The notes beneath the pieces were generated by a model that was not told the DNA's origin, did not search any database, and worked only from the letters and a program-made list of their open reading frames with translations. DNA of 64,000 nucleotides from Naumannella cuiyingiana. GTDB lineage: Bacteria; Actinomycetota; Actinomycetes; Propionibacteriales; Propionibacteriaceae. The stretch spans positions 1,488,001 through 1,552,000 of the forward strand of contig NZ_JACBZS010000001.1 of NCBI RefSeq assembly GCF_013408305.1, written 5' to 3'. Of the stretch, positions 1 through 10,361 are shown piece after piece. A program made the position numbers and the translations under genes. Within the stretch, counting starts at the first letter, position 1; the number at the start of each line of letters is the position of its first letter.

Positions 1-3000
1 CAGGCTGAGCGAGCGGGCCGGGTCGAAGGTGCTCAACGCGCTGTCGTCATCGCTGACGGGCTCGCCATCGGCGCCGCGCCCGGTGGCCGTCGCGTCGTTG
101 GCCACCCGCCGGTTGTTGATGTCGGCCTGGGTCAGCTCGTAGGAACCGGAGCACGTGGTCGATTCGCCCGGGCCGAGCCTGGTGGTCGGACACGTCACGC
201 CGGTGTCGCCGAGCAACGAGTCGTCCACGGCCAGGTCGGTCACGGACGTCGTGCCGGTGTTGGTGATCGTGAACGTGTAGTCGATCTTGTCGCCCGCGTC
301 GAGCCGATTGCTGTTGTTGGCATCGACCGGAGTGCCGGCCTGCTTGTCCAGAACGATCGTGGCCTCGCGCGGCACCGTCGTGGTCTCGGTGTCGGTGGCC
401 TTCACGGCGACACCGAGCGGCGGCGTACCCGAGGCGGTGGCGGTGTTCTCCACCTCACCGGAGTCCACATCCGCCTGGCTCAGCATGTAGCTCGCGGTGC
501 AGGTGACCTCCTGACCCGGGTCGAGGGTCGTGTTCGGGCAGGTCACAGCGCCGACCTTCGGGTCGTTCACGCCGACCTCGGTCAGCGTGACCGAGCCGGT
601 GTTGCGGACCACGAAGGTGTAGTCGATCCGCTCGCCGGACTCGATCCGCCCGTCGCCGTCGACATCGACCGGGTCACTGCTGCGCTTGTCCAGGGAGAGC
701 TGGGGCTTGGCGTCGATCGGCGTGGTCACCGAGTCGGTGGCGCTGGCGGGCTGATCGTTCGGCCCGACCGCGGACGCCGTGGCCGTGTTGCGCACCTGAC
801 CCGCGTTCGCCTCGGCGAGTGTGAGCGTGTGGCTGCCCGTGCAGGTGACCGACTTGCCCGGATCGAGCGGCCCGGTCGGGCAGGTCACGTTCGGCACCAG
901 CGGGTCGCTGATCGAGATCTGGTCCACCGTGCTCGGGCCCGTGTTGGTGACCTCGAAGGTGTAGTCGATCCGGTCTCCCGCGTCGGGACCGTTGTCGTCC
1001 AGGTCGACGACGCCGCCGCCGCTCTTGACCAGCCCGATCTCGGGCTTGTTCGCCAGCCGCGCCTGCGCGTCGTCGGATCGCTCCAGCGTCGTGCCGTCCG
1101 GCGCCTGGATGCTCAGGGTCGCGGTGTTGTCGACGACGCCGGCGTCCACGTCGGCCTGCTTGAGCGTGTACTGGCCCTGGCAGGTCGCGCTGGTGCCTGG
1201 CGCGACGTTGTTGAACGTGCAGTCGGGCACGGTGCCGCCGAGCAGCGGGTCGTCGATCGTCCCGGAGTTGAGCGTGACGTTGCCCGTGTTGCGGACGCTG
1301 AAGGTGTAGTTGACCACGTCGCCCGCCGCGATCCGGCCGTCACCATTGGCGTCGGTGAAGGAGGCCACCTGCTTGCTGAACGTCGCGTTCGGTGCCCCGG
1401 GCATCGGCTGGATGTGATCCCCGGTGGCGCTGATCGGCGTACCGTCCGGGGTCTGCCCGATGCCGGTCGCCACATTGCGCAGCGAGCCCGCGTCGATGTC
1501 CGTCTGGCTGATCCGGTACTCGCCGGTGCAGGTCATCGTCGCGCTCGGGATCAGGTTGGGCCGAGGACAGCTCGTGCCGGCCGGGAGCAGGGAGTCCTCC
1601 ACCCGGATGAAGTCGATCGTCACATTGCCGGTGTTCGTGATCGCGAACGTGTAGCGCAGCAGGTCGCCCTCGCTGAGCCGTCCGTCGGAGTCGGCGTCGA
1701 CGACCTCGCCGACGTCCTTTGTCAGCGTCATCCCGGGCTCCGCGGGCAGCGCGACCCTGGCGGTGGCGTCATCGCTGACCGGATTGCCCGTCGGGGGTGT
1801 GCCCGACACGGACGCGTTGTTGGTCACCGAGCCGGCGTCGAGATCGCGCTGGGTGATCGTGTAGCGGGCCGTGCAGGTCATCTCCTCGTCCGGCGCGAGC
1901 GATGTCGTGGGGCAGGCCACCAGCGCGCCGAGGCGCGGGTCAGCGATCACGACGTCGGTCAGCGTGACGTTGCCGGTGTTGTGGACGACGAAGTCGTAGA
2001 CGGCCTGGTCGCCGCGGTCGACCCGACCCGGCTGCGAGTACGGCCCGAAGTTGACATCCACGACCTCGCGGACCGACTTGTCCAGCGAGATCGCCGGCCC
2101 GGGGGTGATCGGCACGTCGGTGGAGTCGGTGGAGCTGATGGTCTCCCCGCTCGGGTCCACCGCGACGGCGGTCGCCACGTTGGCGACGCTGCCGGCGTCG
2201 ATGTCGTCCTGGGTGATCACGTAGCTGGCGGTGCAGGTGACGGTACGCAGCGGCGCCACGTCGGTCACCGGACAGTCCACCGCGGCCTGCTCGTCGAGCA
2301 CCTCGAGCAGCCGCAGGGTGCGGTTGCCCTCGTTGGTGACCACGAAGGTGTAGTCGATCCGATCGCCCGCATCGATCCGGCCGTTGTTGCCGGCGTCCAC
2401 CAGCACGGCCTGCTTGTCCAGGGTCATCTTCTTGATCTCGGGCAGCGTCGAGGTGGTCCGGTCCACGCTCTCCACGCGCTCACCGCGCGGCGACGTGCCG
2501 CTCGCGGTCGCGACGTTGATCACCTCGCCGGCGTCCAGGTCGGGCTGGGTCAGCGTGTAGTCGAGGACGCAGGTGGCGCTCTGCCCCGGATCGAGATTCG
2601 CCGGCGGGCAACTGATCGGGCCGATCCGCGGATCGCTCACCGCGATCCCGGAGATCCGGGTGTTGCCGTTGTTGGTGATCACGAAGGTGTAGCGGATCGT
2701 GTCGCCCGCGTCGATCCGGTCGTTGTTGTTGGCATCGATCGGGGCGCTGGCCTGCTTGTCGAGCTGGATCGCCGGCCCCTGGGTGATCGGCACGCTGGTC
2801 TCGTCGGCCGCCCGAACCGACTGGTCCCCGGGCGCGTTGGCGCTCACCTGGGCACGGTTGTCCACCGAGCCCGAGTCGATGTCGTCCTGGCTGAGCGTGT
2901 AGGTGGCCGTGCACTCGATGCTGCCGCCCGGCGCGAGCGCACCTGTCGGGCAGTTCACCGCGCCGATCTTCGGGTCGCTGATGGTGACCGTGTCCAGCGT

Positions 3001-6000
3001 GACGTTGCCGCTGTTGGTCACCACGAACCGGTAGTCGATCGTGTCCCCGCGATCGGTGCGACCCGAGTTGTTCGCATCGACGATCGGGCCGGCCTGCTTG
3101 TCCAGCGCGATCCCGGGATCGCGCGTCAGCGTCACCGTCGCGTCATCGGCGGCGCTGGCAGTCGTCCCGGTCGGGGAGACCCCGGTCACGCTGGCGTTGT
3201 TGATCACTTCGCCGGCGTTGAGGTCCTCGATGGTCAGCGCGTGCGAGCCGGTGCAGGTGATCGACTCACCCGGCGCGATCGTCCGCGTCGGGCAGCTCAG
3301 CGTGCCCTGGACCAGCGGGTCGGTCAGGGTGACGTTGTTCAGCGTCGTCGCGCCCGTATTGGTGATCACGAACGTGTAGTCGACCGTGTCACCGGCGTCG
3401 TCTCGGCCGGACTCGTTGGTGTCCACGACCCCGCCCGCACGCTTGTCCAACGTCATCGTGGTGGTGACGTCGAGCTCGCGCTCGGCCGTCGCGCTGTCGG
3501 AGGCGGTGCCGGAGCCGTTCGCGCCCTGGCCGGTCGCGGTGGCCTCGTTGAGCACCGTGCCGGCGTCGATGTCGGCCTGGGTCAGCGTGTAGGTCGCGGT
3601 ACAGGTGCGCGTCTTGCCCGGATCGAGCGCGCCGGGCGGGCAGGTCACGTCGGTGATCTTCGGGTCGTTGATCGCCAACGCCTCAAGCGTCACATTGCCG
3701 GTGTTGGTGATCACGAACGTGTAGGCAATCGTGTCGCCGGCGTCGGTCCGTTGCGTGTTGTTCGCATCGGCCGGCGCGGCCGCGGACTTGGTCAGGTCCA
3801 GCGCGGGCGTCCGCGCGAGCGGGGTGCTCGTGTCGTCGGTCGCCGTCTCGGTGCCACCGAAGGACGAGGTCGCCGTGGCGGTGGCGGTGTTGTCGCGCAC
3901 CCCGGCGTCGATGTCGGCCTGGGTGAGCGTGTAGGTGAAGGAGCCACAGCGCATGGAGTCGCGCGGGCGCAGCGTACCGATGTCGCCCTGCGGGCAGGTC
4001 AGATCACCGCCGAGCAACGGGTCGCTCAGCACGACGTCGTCGAGCGTGGCGTTGCCGGGGTTGCTGACGAACAGGTCGTAGTCGATGGTGTCGCCGGCGT
4101 TCAGCACGCCGTCGCCGTTGGCATCGACCACATCGCCCGCGACCTTGTCGAGCTGGATCTGCGCCGCGTCCGCGACCGGCACCTCGGTGCTGTCGGTGCT
4201 GTCGACCGTGGCGCCGGTCGGCGACTCCGCCTCGACGGTCGCGGTGTTCTCGACGGTTCCGGCGTCAATGTCGGCCTGGGTCAGCGTGTAGGTGGCGGTG
4301 CACGAGGCCGACTCGCCGGGCGCCAGGGGCCGGATGGTGCAGTCGAGCTCCGGCAGCCGCGGGTCGGCGACGACGATGTTGCTCAGGGTCTGGTTACCCG
4401 AGTTGGTGACCACGAAGGTGTAGCTGATCGTGTCACCCTCGTCGTCGACCTCGGAGCCGTTGGCGTCGGCGATGGCGCTCGCCTGCTTGTCGAGCGAGAT
4501 CGCCGGCGCGACGTCCAGCTCGCGTTCGGCGCTCGCGGTATCGCTCGGCTGCTCGCCGTCCGGGGCACGGCCCGTTGCGGTCGCGGTGTTCTCGACGATC
4601 CCGGCGTCGATGTCGGCCTGGGTCAGCGTGTAGGTCGCGGTGCACGTGACGGGTACGCCCGGCTCCAGCGTCGCCGCCTGCGGGCAGGCCACCGCCCCAC
4701 CGAGCAGCGTGTCGGTCAGCGTGACGTTGCTCAGCGTGACGCTGCCGGTGTTGGTGACCACGAAGGTGTAGGTGATGGTGTCGCCGGGGCTCAGTTCGCC
4801 CGAGCCGTCGTCGACCACCGGTCCGGCCGTCTTCGTCAGGTCGATCGACTCGACCGGGGTGATCTCAGTGCTGGTCGTGTCGGTCGCCTCGACCGGTTCG
4901 CCGTCCGGGTCGGTGCCGGCGGCCGTGGCGGTGTTGTCCACGAGGCCGCTGTTCACGTCGGCCTGGGTGATCGTGTAGGTGACCGAGCCGCAGTCATGGG
5001 AATCGCCCGCCGCGAGGCTGGCCACGGAGCAGTTCAGGGCCGGCACACGCGGGTCGGTCACCGTGACGTTGTCGATCGTGCGGGCGCCGACATTGGAGAC
5101 GACGAAGCTGTAGCTGATCGTGTCGCCCGCATCGATCCGGCCGTTGCCGTTGGCGTCCACCGGGTCGGCCGCCGTCTTGTCCAGGCTGAGCTGGGACTCG
5201 GCATCCAGCGGTGTGGTGGTCGAATCGGTCCGCTCCAGCGGGTCGGAGCCGGGCGCGGTCGCCGTCGCGGTCGCGGTGTTGACCTTCTCACCGCTCGGGT
5301 CGTCCAGGTCGGCCGCGGTCAGGGTGTAGGTGGCCTGACAGGTCGCCCGCGCCCCCGGCGCGAGCGTGGTCGGGCAGCCCGTCGGGTCGACGAGCGAGTC
5401 GTCCAGCGCAATGTCGCTGAGGGTGACCGTGCCGGTGTTCTCGAACACGAAGGTGTAGGTGATCGTGTCACCGGCATCCACCACGCCGGAGTCGTTCGTG
5501 TCCTGCACCGAGCTGGCCTGCTTGTCGAAGCTCAGGTCGGCGCGCCGGGGGATGTCCAGCCGGTTGGCGTCGGTGGCGCTGACGGTCTCGCCGCCGGGCC
5601 GCGTGCCCCGCACGGTGGCGCTGTTGTTCACCACGCCCGCGTCGACATCGGTCTGGGTCAGGGTGTAGGTCGCCGTGCAGGTGACCGACTGGCCCGGCGC
5701 CAGCGGGTCGGTCGGGCAGCTCGCCCCACCGGTACGCGCGTCATCGATCGTCACGCCGCGCAGGGTCTCGTTGCCGGTATTGGTGACCAGGAAGCTGTAG
5801 GTGACGGTGTCGCCCGCGTCGGGCCCGTTGCCGTCGGCGTCGACGATGGGTCCCGCGGTCTTGTCCAGCGCGATGGAGGCGGTCGTCTCGAGCCTGGTCG
5901 TAGCCGTGGCGTTCGCGGTGACGTTCGGGCCGCTCGGCGGGGTGCCCTGGACGGTCGCGGCGTTGACCACCGACCGGTTGTCGATGTCGGTCTGGGTCAG

Positions 6001-9000
6001 GGTGTAGTTGCCGGTACAGGTGGTCTGGGCGCCGGGCTGCAGCGGCGCGGTCGGACAGGTCACGCCGGGAATCAGGTTGTCGGCGACCTGGATCGCGGTC
6101 AGGGTCTGGTTGCCCGTGTTGGTGACCGTGAACGTGTAGGGCAGCGTGTCGCCCTCGTCGGTCCCGTTGTTGTCGTTGTCGACCAGCGTGCCGGCGCGCT
6201 TGGTCAGCGCGATGCCCGCGCGTACCGGCAGGTCGAGCGTGTCCGTTCCGGTCGCGGTGACGGCCGCACCGCCGGAGGCCGGCGTACCGCTGACGGTCGC
6301 CTGGTTGACGACGCGTGCGGCATTGAAATCGGCCTGGGTCAGCACATACGTGCCGGTGCAGGTGACCTGCTGACCGGGCGCCAGGGTGGCCGGGCAGTTG
6401 GTCTGTGCCACCCGGTTGTCGGTCAACGTGACGCTGTTCAGCGTCACGTTGCCGGTGTTGGTCAGCGTGAACCGGTAGGTGACCGTGTCGCCGGCATTGA
6501 CGCTGTTGGAGTTGTTGGTATCGGCGATCGTCGGGGCGTGGGTCTTGACCAGCGTGATCCCGGCGACCACCGGCAGCGGTACGCGCGCCGTCGCGGGAGC
6601 GGTGACCGGATCACCCGTCGGCGGCTGGCCGGTGGCGGTCGCCTGGTTGTCCACCCGGCCCAGGTCGATGTCGGCCTGGGTCAGCCGGTAGGTGGCGGTG
6701 CAGGTGGTCGACGCGTTCGGCGCGAGCGTCGTGGTCGGGCAGTTGACCGGGGCCGCCTTCGGATCGTTCACGCCGACCGCGGTCAGGGTGACGTTGCCGG
6801 TGTTGGTGACCACGAAGGTGTAGCTGATCGTCTCGTTGACGTCGGCGCGCTGGTTGTTGTTCGCGTCGTTGAACGTGCCCGACTTCGTCATCGCCAGCCT
6901 CGCCTGCGGCGGCAGCGGGGTGGTCTGCGTGTCGTTCGAGCTGACCGGGACGTTGCCGGGCGCGGTGCCGCGGACGGTGGCCGTATTGGTCACGGCGCCG
7001 GCGTCGATGTCGGTCTGGGTGATGGTGTAGCTACCGGTGCAGGTGCCGGTCGCGCCCGGCGCCAGGGTGGCCGGACAGGTGAGCGGCCCTGGGACCCGGG
7101 TGTCGGTCACGGTCACACCGCTCAGGGTGACCGCTCCGGTGTTGGTCACCAGGAAGCGGTAGTTGATCACATCGCCCGGGCGCACGATGTTGGGATCGGC
7201 CTGGGTGATCCCGACGAGCTGCTTGTCGATCGTCACCGAGGGCGAACTCGCCACGGTCTTCGTCGCGCTCGCCGTGCGCGAGAGCTGCTGGCCGTTGGTG
7301 GCGGTGCCGCGCGCGGTGGCGGTGTTGTCGACCTTGCCGGCATCGACCTCGGCCTGGGTGATCGTGTGCGAGCCCGTACAGGTCGCCGTGCCGCCGGGGG
7401 CGAGGCTGGTCGCCGTGCAGGTGACCGGCCCGTTCAACTGCGAGTCGCTGATCGTCAGGTTGTTGATCGTCGCCGAGCCCGTGTTCACGATGGTGAACAC
7501 GTAGTCGATCCGGTCACCCGCGTCCTGGCGGCGGTTGTTGTTGGCGTCCACCACGTCGCCCGCCTGCTTGGCGAAGGTCATCGCGGCGGTCGACGTCAGC
7601 GTCCGCTGGTCGCCGTCGCTGCCCGTGACCGTTTCGCCGGTGGGCGTACGCGAGGTCACGCTGGCGGTGTTCTGCACGCCGCCCGCGTCCATGTCGGCCT
7701 GGGTGATCCGATAGGTGGCGGTGCAGGTGATCTTGGCGCCCGGGTCGATCGAGGTCGCCGGACAGGTGACCGGGACCTTGGGGTCGTTGACCGCAACCTG
7801 GCTGAGCGTCACATTGCCGGTGTTGGTGATCACCACCGTGTACGCGATCGTGTCGCCGGCGTCCTGGCGGCCGTTGCCGTTGGCGTCGTTCACCGCAGCC
7901 GAGGACTTGTCCACCGAGAGCCCCGGGCGGGCAGGCAGGTCGACCCGCGCGGTGGCCGGACCGGCGGTCACCGTCTGGCCGGTCGGCGCGGTGCCACTCA
8001 CCGTGGCCGAGTTGTCCACCCCGCCGGCATTCGCGTTGGCCACGGTCACCGTGTAGGTGGCCGTACAGGTCGTCGACTGGCCCTGCCCGAGACTGGTCCT
8101 GTCGCAGCGGATCTGACCCATCCCGGGCAGCGGATCGTTGATCGCGATGTTGTTGATCGTCACGCTGCCGGTGTTACGCACCGTGAACGTGTAGGTGACG
8201 ATGTCATTCGGCCCCGGCACGCCGTCGCCGTTGTCCTTCGTGATGGCGGCGGTCTTGGTCAGCGAGAGGCTGCGCGTCGTGTCGAGCGGCTGGGAGGTGG
8301 GCGACACGGTCGAGGTGATCGGGGTGTGGCCCGACGGCGTACCCGTCGCGGTGGCAGAGTTGTCGGCCCGGCCGGCGTCCACATCGGCCTGCGTGATCGT
8401 GTAGGTGCCCGTGCAGGTCATACTCGCCCCGCCCGCCAGGGTCGTCTGCGGACAGTTGACGGTGGCGATCTTCGGGTCGTTCACCCCGACCGAGGTCATC
8501 ACGGCGGTGCCCGTGTTGCGCACCACGAACCGGTAGTTGATCGTGTCGCCGACATTGAGCCTGTTGTCGCTGCCGGGACTGGTGCTGGCGATCGACTTGG
8601 TCAACGAGATCCCGGCCGTCTGGGTCGAGGTCGACGTCGTCTGCGAGGTGGACGTCAGGACGGTCGAGCTGGGCGACCAGGTGTAGGTCGTCTGCGCCGT
8701 GTTGCCGACGTTGGTGCCGCTGGTCGTGCCGGAGTTGACCCTGACCCGGAAGGTCAGGGTGGCCGATTCGCCGGGTTCCAGATCTCCCCCCGCGCTGCTG
8801 GTCGCCCCGGCGCCCACGTTGGCGGTGACCGTGCCGCTCGCGAACTGGGCGGGGTCGTCGCCGCTCGCGTCGGTCCTGGCCGTGCCGTCGATCCGGATCG
8901 ACCCGGGCACGTAGGTGGTGTTCGCGGGGATCTGGTCGGTGATCTGGGTCAGCGAGGCCGGCGACCCACCGTTGTTGGTCGCCTTGACCGTGTACTCGAG

Positions 9001-9846
9001 CACGTCGCCCGGCAGCGTCACCGCCGTCGTGCTGGTCACATTGCGGACCTGCTTGTCGGTCACCACGCACGGCGAGTTGCCGAACTCGATGTCGTCCAGG
9101 AAGTTGCCGAGCGTCACGCCACCACTGCCGCTGATCGCCTCGAAACCGAACGCCGTCTGGGTCTGGCCCGCCGGGACGACATAGGTGCCCGTGTAGCGCA
9201 CCCACCCGGCATCGGACGTCGTGATACTGGTCGATGTCGAGCCGTTCGGGTAGGTCGCCGGCTGCGCCGGGTTACTGCGGACCGTACCGTCGGTGGTGTT
9301 GGCGCCGATCTTCACCTGCATGGTGTTCGTCTGATCGCCCGCAATGCTGTTCGTGCTGCGGGCCCGGTGGTAGAGCGACCAGCGCATGATCTGGCCGGGC
9401 ACCGTCGGCAGCACCTGGTAGAGCATCGACGCCTGGTTGGCGTTCAGCTCGGCCCACTGCGAGCCGGCCTGCGCCGAGATGGGCAGGTTGCCGTTGGCGG
9501 TCTGCACATTGCCGCCGTTGCGCCAGTACTCGACCTTGCCGTCGGTGGCGGTGGTCAACCACTGCAGGCCGGCGGCACCCTCGCTGATGTTGGCGCCCGC
9601 TCCGGCGGCGACCACCGGGCTCTCGAAGCTGCCGTTCTGCAGCACGATCGGGTCCGGGCACGAGGTCGGGTCCTGGTCCGCCCGCGCCACCGGCGGCGGC
9701 GGGACGAGCGGGTTGTCGCGCGGCGCGAGCGCCTGGCCGAGGTTGATGCCGATGCCCAGGGTGCCGACCAGCGCGAGGACGAGACACATCCGCACAGCGG
9801 TGCCCAGCACCCCCGCGCGTCGCGCCCAACGCCGCATCGCCCGCAT
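1..9846 (-). CDS. Giant secreted DUF11/DUF7507 repeat protein (3' end outside window)
   Basis: The reading frame stays open for 3282 codons and runs off the window, so the C-terminus and any cell-wall anchor are not visible. The N-terminus has a basic stretch (MRAMRRWARR) and a hydrophobic segment at about residues 14-34, which I read as a signal peptide or anchor. Residues about 60-240 form a globular domain beginning with an NGSFESP motif, typical of jelly-roll/carbohydrate-binding-like modules. A DUF11-like linker unit follows, then at least 25 tandem repeats of about 114 residues. Each repeat reads roughly K-x-A, a D-x-N/D-x-N/D-G acidic loop, AGDTI-x-Y-x-F-VVTNTGN, a CP...LxPGxxxTC cysteine pair, YTLTQADIDAG and NTATAxG. 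Such proteins are usually extracellular adhesins or surface stalks. The start is the ATG right after an in-frame TAG; a second ATG lies three codons on. The lipoprotein gene 68 bp upstream may be co-transcribed. Confidence 0.92.
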   Translation of the reverse strand, partial: MRAMRRWARRAGVLGTAVRMCLVLALVGTLGIGINLGQALAPRDNPLVPPPPVARADQDPTSCPDPIVLQNGSFESPVVAAGAGANISEGAAGLQWLTTATDGKVEYWRNGGNVQTANGNLPISAQAGSQWAELNANQASMLYQVLPTVPGQIMRWSLYHRARSTNSIAGDQTNTMQVKIGANTTDGTVRSNPAQPATYPNGSTSTSITTSDAGWVRYTGTYVVPAGQTQTAFGFEAISGSGGVTLGNFLDDIEFGNSPCVVTDKQVRNVTSTTAVTLPGDVLEYTVKATNNGGSPASLTQITDQIPANTTYVPGSIRIDGTARTDASGDDPAQFASGTVTANVGAGATSSAGGDLEPGESATLTFRVRVNSGTTSGTNVGNTAQTTYTWSPSSTVLTSTSQTTSTSTQTAGISLTKSIASTSPGSDNRLNVGDTINYRFVVRNTGTAVMTSVGVNDPKIATVNCPQTTLAGGASMTCTGTYTITQADVDAGRADNSATATGTPSGHTPITSTVSPTSQPLDTTRSLSLTKTAAITKDNGDGVPGPNDIVTYTFTVRNTGSVTINNIAINDPLPGMGQIRCDRTSLGQGQSTTCTATYTVTVANANAGGVDNSATVSGTAPTGQTVTAGPATARVDLPARPGLSVDKSSAAVNDANGNGRQDAGDTIAYTVVITNTGNVTLSQVAVNDPKVPVTCPATSIDPGAKITCTATYRITQADMDAGGVQNTASVTSRTPTGETVTGSDGDQRTLTSTAAMTFAKQAGDVVDANNNRRQDAGDRIDYVFTIVNTGSATINNLTISDSQLNGPVTCTATSLAPGGTATCTGSHTITQAEVDAGKVDNTATARGTATNGQQLSRTASATKTVASSPSVTIDKQLVGITQADPNIVRPGDVINYRFLVTNTGAVTLSGVTVTDTRVPGPLTCPATLAPGATGTCTGSYTITQTDIDAGAVTNTATVRGTAPGNVPVSSNDTQTTPLPPQARLAMTKSGTFNDANNNQRADVNETISYTFVVTNTGNVTLTAVGVNDPKAAPVNCPTTTLAPNASTTCTATYRLTQADIDLGRVDNQATATGQPPTGDPVTAPATARVPLPVVAGITLVKTHAPTIADTNNSNSVNAGDTVTYRFTLTNTGNVTLNSVTLTDNRVAQTNCPATLAPGQQVTCTGTYVLTQADFNAARVVNQATVSGTPASGGAAVTATGTDTLDLPVRAGIALTKRAGTLVDNDNNGTDEGDTLPYTFTVTNTGNQTLTAIQVADNLIPGVTCPTAPLQPGAQTTCTGNYTLTQTDIDNRSVVNAATVQGTPPSGPNVTANATATTRLETTASIALDKTAGPIVDADGNGPDAGDTVTYSFLVTNTGNETLRGVTIDDARTGGASCPTDPLAPGQSVTCTATYTLTQTDVDAGVVNNSATVRGTRPGGETVSATDANRLDIPRRADLSFDKQASSVQDTNDSGVVDAGDTITYTFVFENTGTVTLSDIALDDSLVDPTGCPTTLAPGARATCQATYTLTAADLDDPSGEKVNTATATATAPGSDPLERTDSTTTPLDAESQLSLDKTAADPVDANGNGRIDAGDTISYSFVVSNVGARTIDNVTVTDPRVPALNCSVASLAAGDSHDCGSVTYTITQADVNSGLVDNTATAAGTDPDGEPVEATDTTSTEITPVESIDLTKTAGPVVDDGSGELSPGDTITYTFVVTNTGSVTLSNVTLTDTLLGGAVACPQAATLEPGVPVTCTATYTLTQADIDAGIVENTATATGRAPDGEQPSDTASAERELDVAPAISLDKQASAIADANGSEVDDEGDTISYTFVVTNSGNQTLSNIVVADPRLPELDCTIRPLAPGESASCTATYTLTQADIDAGTVENTATVEAESPTGATVDSTDSTEVPVADAAQIQLDKVAGDVVDANGDGVLNAGDTIDYDLFVSNPGNATLDDVVLSDPLLGGDLTCPQGDIGTLRPRDSMRCGSFTYTLTQADIDAGVRDNTATATATSSFGGTETATDDTSTPLARTPALDLTKSAAAPADANNTQRTDAGDTIAYTFVITNTGNVTLEALAINDPKITDVTCPPGALDPGKTRTCTATYTLTQADIDAGTVLNEATATGQGANGSGTASDSATAERELDVTTTMTLDKRAGGVVDTNESGRDDAGDTVDYTFVITNTGATTLNNVTLTDPLVQGTLSCPTRTIAPGESITCTGSHALTIEDLNAGEVINNASVTGVSPTGTTASAADDATVTLTRDPGIALDKQAGPIVDANNSGRTDRGDTIDYRFVVTNSGNVTLDTVTISDPKIGAVNCPTGALAPGGSIECTATYTLSQDDIDSGSVDNRAQVSANAPGDQSVRAADETSVPITQGPAIQLDKQASAPIDANNNDRIDAGDTIRYTFVITNNGNTRISGIAVSDPRIGPISCPPANLDPGQSATCVLDYTLTQPDLDAGEVINVATASGTSPRGERVESVDRTTSTLPEIKKMTLDKQAVLVDAGNNGRIDAGDRIDYTFVVTNEGNRTLRLLEVLDEQAAVDCPVTDVAPLRTVTCTASYVITQDDIDAGSVANVATAVAVDPSGETISSTDSTDVPITPGPAISLDKSVREVVDVNFGPYSQPGRVDRGDQAVYDFVVHNTGNVTLTDVVIADPRLGALVACPTTSLAPDEEMTCTARYTITQRDLDAGSVTNNASVSGTPPTGNPVSDDATARVALPAEPGMTLTKDVGEVVDADSDGRLSEGDLLRYTFAITNTGNVTIDFIRVEDSLLPAGTSCPRPNLIPSATMTCTGEYRISQTDIDAGSLRNVATGIGQTPDGTPISATGDHIQPMPGAPNATFSKQVASFTDANGDGRIAAGDVVNYTFSVRNTGNVTLNSGTIDDPLLGGTVPDCTFNNVAPGTSATCQGQYTLKQADVDAGVVDNTATLSIQAPDGTTLERSDDAQARLANKPEIGLVKSGGGVVDLDDNGPDAGDRIDYTFEVTNTGPSTVDQISISDPLVPNVTCPTGPLDPGKSVTCTGSHTLTLAEANAGQVRNTATASAVGPNDQPASATDSVTTPIDAKPQLSLDKRSSDPVDVDGDGRIESGERIDYTFVVRNTGSVTLTEVGVNDPKVGAVTCPNTTLDPGQEVTCTASYMLSQADVDSGEVENTATASGTPPLGVAVKATDTETTTVPREATIVLDKQAGTPVDANNSNRLDAGDKIDYTFTITNTGTTSVTDLAVDDSLLGDTGVTCPTTRLGPGESTTCSGSYELTQADINNRRVANDATATGRGADGEPVSDDDSALSTFDPARSLSL

Positions 9847-9914
9847 CTACCCGATTCCCCTCATCCCCTGCCGTCCCCCACAAGTCCGCCGGCCGCGCCG
9901 CGCGACCGGCCGCG

Positions 9915-10361
9915 TCAACTCTTGACTTCGCCGCGCTTGACGTTGAGCGAGCACTGGGCTGCGTCGCGGTCCAGCTTCGCGCTGATCTTCCAGTCCTTCG
10001 ACGTGCCCGCCTTCAGGCCCTTCACGACCGCGATCCCGCGGCCGTACACATCGAACGTCGAGTTCACCCAGCTGATCGTGATCACGTAGTCGGTCGTCTT
10101 GTCGGTGTTGTTGGTCACCTTGCCCGTGACCGTCTGCTCGCCGGCGTTGGTGCGGCACTCGCCCATCTCGGCATCGGAGCGGGCTCCCGCTTCCTTCTCG
10201 ATCTTGGGCGGCTCCGGCAGATTCGAGGGGGCAACCCGGTCGGGGTCCACGCCGGTCGGCACCGGGGGCGGCTCGGGGGACTGCCCGCCCGACCCGCACG
10301 CCGCAGCCCCGAGGAGCACGGTCGCGGCGGCGGCCGCGGCCAGCATCCGGCGATCCGGCAT
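9915..10361 (-). CDS. Small FxLYD-like lipoprotein
   Basis: Predicted 148-residue exported lipoprotein. The chosen ATG follows an AGGGGAG Shine-Dalgarno sequence about eight bases upstream; the open frame extends further, but that region has no protein-like signal. The N-terminus (MPDRRMLAAAAAATVLLGAAAC) is a lipoprotein signal with Cys at about residue 22, followed by a Gly/Ser/Pro-rich linker. The C-terminal half, with VTGKVTNNTDKTTDYVITISW and paired cysteines, resembles the Ig-like FxLYD domain, which mediates extracellular protein contacts. It is encoded directly upstream of the giant repeat protein on the same strand, so a shared transcript and a partner role at the cell surface are plausible but inferred. 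Confidence 0.8.
   Translation of the reverse strand: MPDRRMLAAAAAATVLLGAAACGSGGQSPEPPPVPTGVDPDRVAPSNLPEPPKIEKEAGARSDAEMGECRTNAGEQTVTGKVTNNTDKTTDYVITISWVNSTFDVYGRGIAVVKGLKAGTSKDWKISAKLDRDAAQCSLNVKRGEVKS

Follow-up and report, generated by a model that had tools for sequence, protein, structure and literature searches.

The window analysed here is a stretch of 64,000 nucleotides from Naumannella cuiyingiana (G000:C1:1488001-1552000), taken from a genome of 3.53 Mb that is 99.99% complete in two contigs. A minus-strand frame starts with an ATG at position 9846 and remains open for 3282 codons to the window edge (window 9846..1), in agreement with the open frame of more than 3280 codons reported in a preliminary description of this DNA. 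The protein is, however, larger: reading on past the window the stop was reached, and the whole gene, G000:C1:1479277-1497846 on the minus strand, is embedded in a 3.49 Mb contig and encodes a product of 6189 aa with a predicted mass of ~629 kDa. The DNA has 71% G+C, which, like the class E sortase and the closest named head homolog described below, points to an actinobacterium. From sequence, this product consists of a signal peptide, a CBM-like head, one DUF11 domain, 50 DUF7507 repeats, an LARTG motif, a membrane helix and an Arg-rich tail, in that order. The features that lie in the window are as follows.

Window 1..9846, minus strand: 5' 53% of the putative giant adhesin gene, aa 1-3282 of 6189, extending outside the window to G000:C1:1479277.
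Window 9724..9846, minus strand: signal peptide, aa 1-41, with a basic start, hydrophobic core and ALA end, read by eye.
Window 9061..9669, minus strand: head domain, aa 60-262, a predicted CBM-like jelly roll with Cys 63 and Cys 260 near its two ends (model, fold match and homologs).
Window 8683..9036, minus strand: single DUF11 domain, aa 271-388 (Pfam DUF11, 30.2 bits, cut-off 24.6).
Window 10..8610, minus strand: first 25 of the 50 DUF7507 repeats, aa 413-3279, all having two Cys and a Lys/Asp/Asn triad.
Window 2428..3111, minus strand: repeats 17-18, the modelled pair (pLDDT 93.7, pTM 0.79).
Window 1..10089, plus strand: antisense open frame, equally open (3362 codons), not regarded as a gene.

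That the 10-kb plus-strand frame is a real gene has, in our judgment, a negligible likelihood. It is indeed likewise open for 3362 codons, but this openness is explained by the sense gene, which uses the codons TTA, CTA and TCA zero times, and it is the sense frame that matches DUF7507 at 1928.7 bits and carries a signal peptide and an anchor. With its continuation outside the window (L009:11727-20000, plus strand), the antisense frame spans nearly the whole giant gene, or ~6100 codons.

The 1928.7-bit match of the window frame to Pfam DUF7507 (PF24346, cut-off 27) is made up of 25 stretches, and a single repeat by itself scores 94.4 bits. A profile built from the repeats finds 50 copies, mostly 113-116 residues apart, which form a stalk without spacers from aa 413 to 6131 that accounts for 92% of the protein; 25 of the repeats, and the single DUF11 domain, lie in the window, where at least 25 units of DUF11/DUF7507 type had been described previously. 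The DUF11 domain also passes the NCBIfam model of the isopeptide-forming RrgB_K2N domain (34.1 bits, cut-off 30). Several further Pfam families (HYDIN-like Ig, DUF1573, DUF7619, TraK_C and others) exceeded their whole-protein cut-offs with no single stretch passing; these were taken as Ig-fold cross-talk summed over many repeats. A long tandem array could in principle have been falsely multiplied or collapsed during assembly, an explanation we regard as very improbable because the longest exact repeat within the gene is 41 bp, pairwise identity between repeats averages 44% and exceeds 68% for no pair, and the gene lies within a 3.49 Mb contig; against it stand also the single open frame of 6189 codons and the completeness of the two-contig genome.

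Alignment of the 50 repeats gave eight invariant columns (K, N, G, D, C, C, N, A). The Lys/Asp/Asn triad of isopeptide-forming DUF7507 domains, which the preliminary description had missed, is kept in all 50 repeats, with a K-D spacing of 40-42 in 49 of them and a K-N spacing of 79-81 in 44 (range 78-86). This order and spacing are close to those of the DUF7507 example given in the accessible part of a recent survey (Lys 72, Asp 112, Asn 152; K-N = 80), where DUF11 and DUF7507 are renamed CLIPPER and CLIPPER_2 (PMC12617251). The isopeptide triad is probably the main lock of the repeats.

Cysteines are conserved as well. Every one of the 50 repeats contains exactly two, whereas random placement of 100 Cys over 50 repeats yielded at most 29 repeats with exactly two in 20,000 trials; the three remaining Cys of the 103 in the whole protein are at positions 21 (signal peptide), 63 and 260 (head). 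The two are 13 residues apart in 43 repeats, 12 apart in three, 14 in three and 16 in one, so that the earlier observation of a Cys pair about 13 residues apart in nearly every unit extends to the complete stalk. A search for DsbA- or VKOR-like oxidases had been proposed as a check, and both were found side by side: a thioredoxin gene of DsbA type, which exceeds the cut-offs of both Thioredoxin_4 and DSBA, adjoins a VKOR gene at C1:2342472-2343403, and the genome has another VKOR gene and two further Thioredoxin_4 genes elsewhere. Invariant Cys columns together with adjacent DsbA/VKOR-like genes make disulfide stapling of the repeats plausible. That so many Cys would be unusual for an actinobacterial surface protein, as had also been proposed, was not supported. 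According to the accessible text of PMC9974433, DsbA/VKOR is the usual oxidation route of actinobacteria, which makes many Cys in a surface protein ordinary, and the number of Cys is even in roughly 60% of the proteins exported by Actinobacteria, A. oris and C. diphtheriae being examples; in the portion of PMC12617251 available to us, 34.9% of CLIPPER_2 domains and 41.3% of Actinomycetota isopeptide domains are likewise said to contain disulfides.

The model of repeats 17-18 shows two tandem Ig-like domains. Sequence searches of the repeats against solved structures returned nothing or chance-level matches, and by fold the repeat pair matched common Ig-like pairs at Z ~10, among them integrin alpha legs and transglutaminase barrels; the CLIPPER structure named in PMC12617251 was not among the best 50 fold matches listed, and the matches to this modelled pair indicate the fold class only. 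In the same model an acidic loop sits between the strands at 2-11 and 24-32, that is, in the A-B loop. It follows a 12-residue EF-hand-like pattern, D-x-N-x-N/S/D-G-x-x-D-x-G-D, with Asp at position 1 in 41 repeats, N or D at position 3 in 43, N, S or D at position 5 in 45, Asp at position 9 in 40 and D or E at position 12 in all 50. The strict motif, which takes positions 1, 3, 5, 9 and 12 together, is present in 39 of the 50 repeats, while a looser pattern gives 41 of 50 and another gives 36 of 51 domains with DUF11 included. The acidic, calcium-type loop of the earlier account is therefore real and placed in the A-B loop, but it is not universal, since the other 11 repeats lack the strict motif, some of them with a loop one residue shorter. 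In SdrD B domains an EF-hand-like Ca2+ site likewise lies in the A-B loop (accessible part of the preprint PMC13174682), and removal of Ca2+ is reported to cut the unfolding force of SdrD/SdrG-type B domains fourfold (PMC6232131, excerpt). From the pattern and position of the loop, we infer that Ca2+ is bound in the A-B loop of most repeats.

DUF7507 domains are widespread among related genomes. At E <= 0.001 they were found in 30 of 57 relatives (26 over cut-off), 72 of 135 family genomes (63 over cut-off) and 139 of 398 phylum genomes (112 over cut-off). Other long frames include those of genome G020 (6549 aa, 50 repeats) and genome G076 (6440 aa, 51 repeats), both with two Cys in every repeat counted; the looser Ca-loop pattern occurs in 1 of 50 repeats in G020 and 35 of 51 in G076, compared with 41 of 50 in the main giant. 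A DUF7507 match in another genome (G539:C1:2196391-2211273) lies in a frame of 7986 aa, longer than the published Mobiluncus adhesin. In four genomes (G212, G570, G572 and G531) a loose first look gave 184, 163, 110 and 106 DUF7507 candidates, respectively, which suggests that they have many or very long stalk proteins. Although the number of stalk domains is near 50 in several proteins (50 DUF7507 plus DUF11 here, 51 in G076, 50 in G020, 51 in Mobiluncus), the same surveys also gave frames of 7986, 5329, 3548 and 2678 aa, which argue that this likeness is coincidence.

To compare the residues themselves, 427 domains were aligned from the fetched loci, which are mostly best matches and a sample of the genomes with a match; of 479 hits, 17 had been dropped beforehand as too short, and 35 domains because their loci were duplicates. 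Outside the giant (n = 376), 352 domains carry the triad, counted with E allowed for D and D for N, 283 carry both Cys, 274 carry the triad and both Cys, 50 carry the Ca motif and 48 carry all three; by the same pattern the Ca motif is present in 36 of the giant's 51 domains, DUF11 included. In a first column count the triad had seemed to be lost in 185 of 485 domains; we attribute this to local alignment, which would have truncated or displaced the domain start, as realigned extended domains gave 352 of 376. The residues predicted to form the isopeptide and the disulfide are thus general in the sampled DUF7507 domains, and the predicted Ca2+ loop marks a subtype of them.

The same alignment bears on whether the Cys pair instead binds metal, remains reduced, or links separate repeats or chains. 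In favour of this, fifty of the 376 domains hold only one of the two aligned Cys, but 38 of these come from a single genome, G014, where 38 of 40 domains do have two Cys with the second in another column, and otherwise the two columns mostly occur together (283 domains) or are missing together (43). With the DsbA/VKOR genes present and with the published share of CLIPPER_2 disulfides quoted above, we consider such alternatives improbable and prefer a local disulfide in each repeat.

The genome itself encodes a second DUF7507 giant (L011:7152-17777, minus strand; G000:C1:99-110 kb), a frame of 3548 aa that ends in LGRTG and has 27 repeats, all 27 with two Cys. The looser pattern finds the Ca-type loop in 1 of these 27 and the pattern applied to the aligned domains in 0 of 27, which argues that Ca2+ is not needed for the fold. 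This second protein also carries a SpaA_3 domain at about residues 328-422 and, unlike the main giant, has two pairs of adjacent repeats that are nearly identical by eye.

The head was modelled with middling confidence (pLDDT 71.8). Against CBM4-2 of a xylanase the model reaches Z 15.9 (152 residues aligned, rmsd 2.5), with Z values of 13.8-15.6 against CBM16, CBM61 and arabinanase modules and of 14.4-14.8 against cyclases that share the fold. In Pfam nothing exceeded the cut-off for the window head (DUF642 12.5 bits, cut-off 27), and its profile gave chance-level matches only against solved structures. Among the 11 head sequences, 8 match DUF642, 4 HpiC1-like and 4 CBM_4_9 (E up to 1, best 1.5e-6), and alignment of the window head with 10 of its 11 homologs (L021 left out) gave 43 invariant columns. 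The head is present in 3 of 96 relatives searched, own genome counted. Its closest named homolog comes from Haematomicrobium, and Haematomicrobium sanguinis (L018) combines head and DUF7507 repeats in a homolog whose frame breaks once in the draft assembly. Further head-bearing frames, with 0 or 1 Cys, end in LPXTG in four Listeria loci and in YPQTG in Enterococcus villorum; a fifth Listeria locus with the head is incomplete (cut). Given the CBM fold match of the model, a glycan-binding tip is likely.

An alternative is that the giant is mainly a structural component of a coat or matrix, such as a spacer or biofilm scaffold, whose head is no working adhesin. The stalk's 92% share of the protein would suit such a role, and because the CBM fold also holds cyclases the fold by itself does not demonstrate binding. 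We nonetheless hold this alternative to be unlikely: the head is kept in wall-anchored proteins of four Listeria loci and one Enterococcus locus, and 43 invariant columns across 11 aligned sequences are what would be expected of a functional site.

Recovery of the complete C-terminus, which the preliminary description had suggested as a check for an anchor, revealed GELARTG (LARTG at 6152), followed by a hydrophobic helix and an Arg-rich tail, RLRRRDED. This is an LAXTG-type sorting signal, with the anchor helix, like the signal peptide, judged by eye. A search with PF04203 found one sortase in the genome, which scores 216.4 bits with the class E model NF033747 (cut-off 160) and lies below the models of classes C, D and F (class C, 42 vs 160 bits). 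As LAXTG proteins are displayed by class E sortases (PMC5148588, available in part), the sole sortase found fits the LARTG signal, and the giant has the marks of a class E substrate: an LAXTG motif with a hydrophobic helix and a basic tail behind it, in a genome that encodes a sortase of this class. The curated LAxTG anchor model NF058582 (LAVTG) scores 15.4 on the giant, under its cut-off of 27. A sortase-polymerised pilin was rejected, since the only sortase from the PF04203 genome search is of class E and far under the class C cut-off; a pilin motif and E-box gave no match in the giant by the patterns used.

Export signal, repeat stalk and wall anchor are joined in one long chain, as in fibrillar (FA-like) adhesins. 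We therefore think it likely that the giant is a sortase-anchored giant fibrillar adhesin, the stalk modules of which are locked by a predicted isopeptide and disulfide and mostly by Ca2+. The long surface fibre envisaged from the first reading is supported by the signal peptide, the LARTG-helix-Arg tail, the class E sortase and the CBM-fold head, on sequence and models together, and the fact that none of the 50 repeats has lost K, D, N or either Cys despite 44% mean identity counts for the adhesin reading as well. In the mechanism we propose, the chain would be exported unfolded, after which each repeat would fold as an Ig-like sandwich; the conserved Lys would attack the conserved Asn, with the Asp assisting, to form the isopeptide bond, the DsbA/VKOR pair would oxidise the two Cys to a local disulfide in each repeat, and Ca2+ would fill the A-B loop in most repeats. 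The class E sortase would couple LARTG to the wall, so that the CBM-like head is displayed at the stalk tip, perhaps ~200 nm out (an Ig domain measures ~4 nm), where it may bind a glycan on a neighbour cell, host, plant or matrix. The locks would protect so long a stalk from unfolding or digestion.

Mobiluncus is an actinobacterium, and the adhesin of Mobiluncus mulieris is the closest published case that we found. In the accessible part of PMC10619420 it is described as a protein of 7651 residues with 51 Ig-like domains and an LPxTG motif, in which isopeptide, ester, thioester and disulfide bonds all occur. It shares with the giant a single chain of ~50 Ig-like domains, a sortase motif, an adhesive head (predicted here) and isopeptide bonds (predicted here), and the Mobiluncus isopeptide domain that was studied contains a disulfide. 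The Mobiluncus protein, as far as that text describes it, combines 18 domains of the ester-bond type and 33 of the isopeptide type, these having been identified by means of a Spy0128 domain, with a thioester-type head and LPxTG, whereas the giant has 50 uniform DUF7507 repeats, a CBM-like head, LARTG and Ca-type loops. A thioester-isopeptide-ester (TIE) protein of the Mobiluncus type was rejected, as both its ester and its thioester motif are absent: the ester-bond motif HxDxxDxxQ has no match in the 6189 aa, and the thioester motif TQxx-aromatic-W is absent from the giant, the head of which matches CBMs.

Other known systems share parts of this design. SdrD/SdrG B domains are Ig-like stalk domains in which the A-B loop, immediately following strand A, holds a Ca2+ site of EF-hand-like type; they have three Ca2+ sites as against the one predicted per repeat here (PMC6232131, PMC13174682; both in part), and the SdrD_B profile is absent among the 14 Pfam families that match the window frame at E <= 0.001. 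Isopeptide, disulfide and Ca2+ loop are already found in one pilin, FimP of Actinomyces oris, in the part of PMC3485203 available to us. FimP, however, has three domains and is assembled into polymers by a pilus sortase, whereas the giant is one chain and the class E sortase is the only one found. SiiE of Salmonella is exported by type 1 secretion in a Gram-negative bacterium, and we know of no sortase anchoring for it. Like the putative adhesin described here it is of giant size, and it has 53 Ig domains together with Ca2+ sites (PMC5466336, in part).

The giant adds no new principle, as giant cross-linked adhesins are known and DUF7507 frames reach 6440, 6549 and 7986 aa. With the CLIPPER/CLIPPER_2 proteins of PMC12617251, as described in its accessible part, it has in common the Pfam families, the triad and its spacing, tandem stalks and frequent disulfides. 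That survey used AlphaFold DB with an upper length limit of 1280 aa, which placed proteins of the giant's size outside it; in the accessible text no Ca site of DUF7507 is described ("calcium" appears once, in the reference list), nor is the triple combination of isopeptide, disulfide and Ca2+ for DUF7507. We tentatively propose, at somewhat less than an even chance, a class of DUF7507 giants beyond the survey length, in which most modules would be triple-locked by isopeptide, disulfide and EF-hand-type Ca2+. If this is true, one 6189-aa chain would hold up to 50 isopeptide bonds, 50 disulfides and ~40 Ca2+, and Ca2+ and redox state could tune the stiffness of the stalk. The giant shows that a DUF7507 stalk can comprise 50 modules, far more than the 1280 residues to which the survey's database is limited would allow, with the predicted cross-linking residues retained in every module, and one domain type repeated 50 times offers a clean test system for the strength added by each lock.

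Two further genes of interest stand within 7 kb of the giant gene's 3' end, with other frames intervening.

L009:5082-6329, plus strand: secreted sialidase-like BNR protein.
L009:4336-5067, plus strand: M15 peptidase with a peptidoglycan-binding domain.

The M15 gene gave only weak partial matches in G001, G020 and G014. In the sister species G001 the genes that flank the giant are conserved (67% and 70% identity), but they are 1.8 kb apart, with other frames between them, vs 19.5 kb here. The site that we take to be syntenic (L085, G001:C2:549001-569000) has what look like an HTH-type gene and a DUF1707-like gene where the giant stands in this genome; tblastn of the giant against this 20-kb piece gave no match, and elsewhere G001 has a single DUF7507 match. 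As the giant is missing at the syntenic site of the one other species compared, the gene is not fixed in the genus and has been gained or lost.
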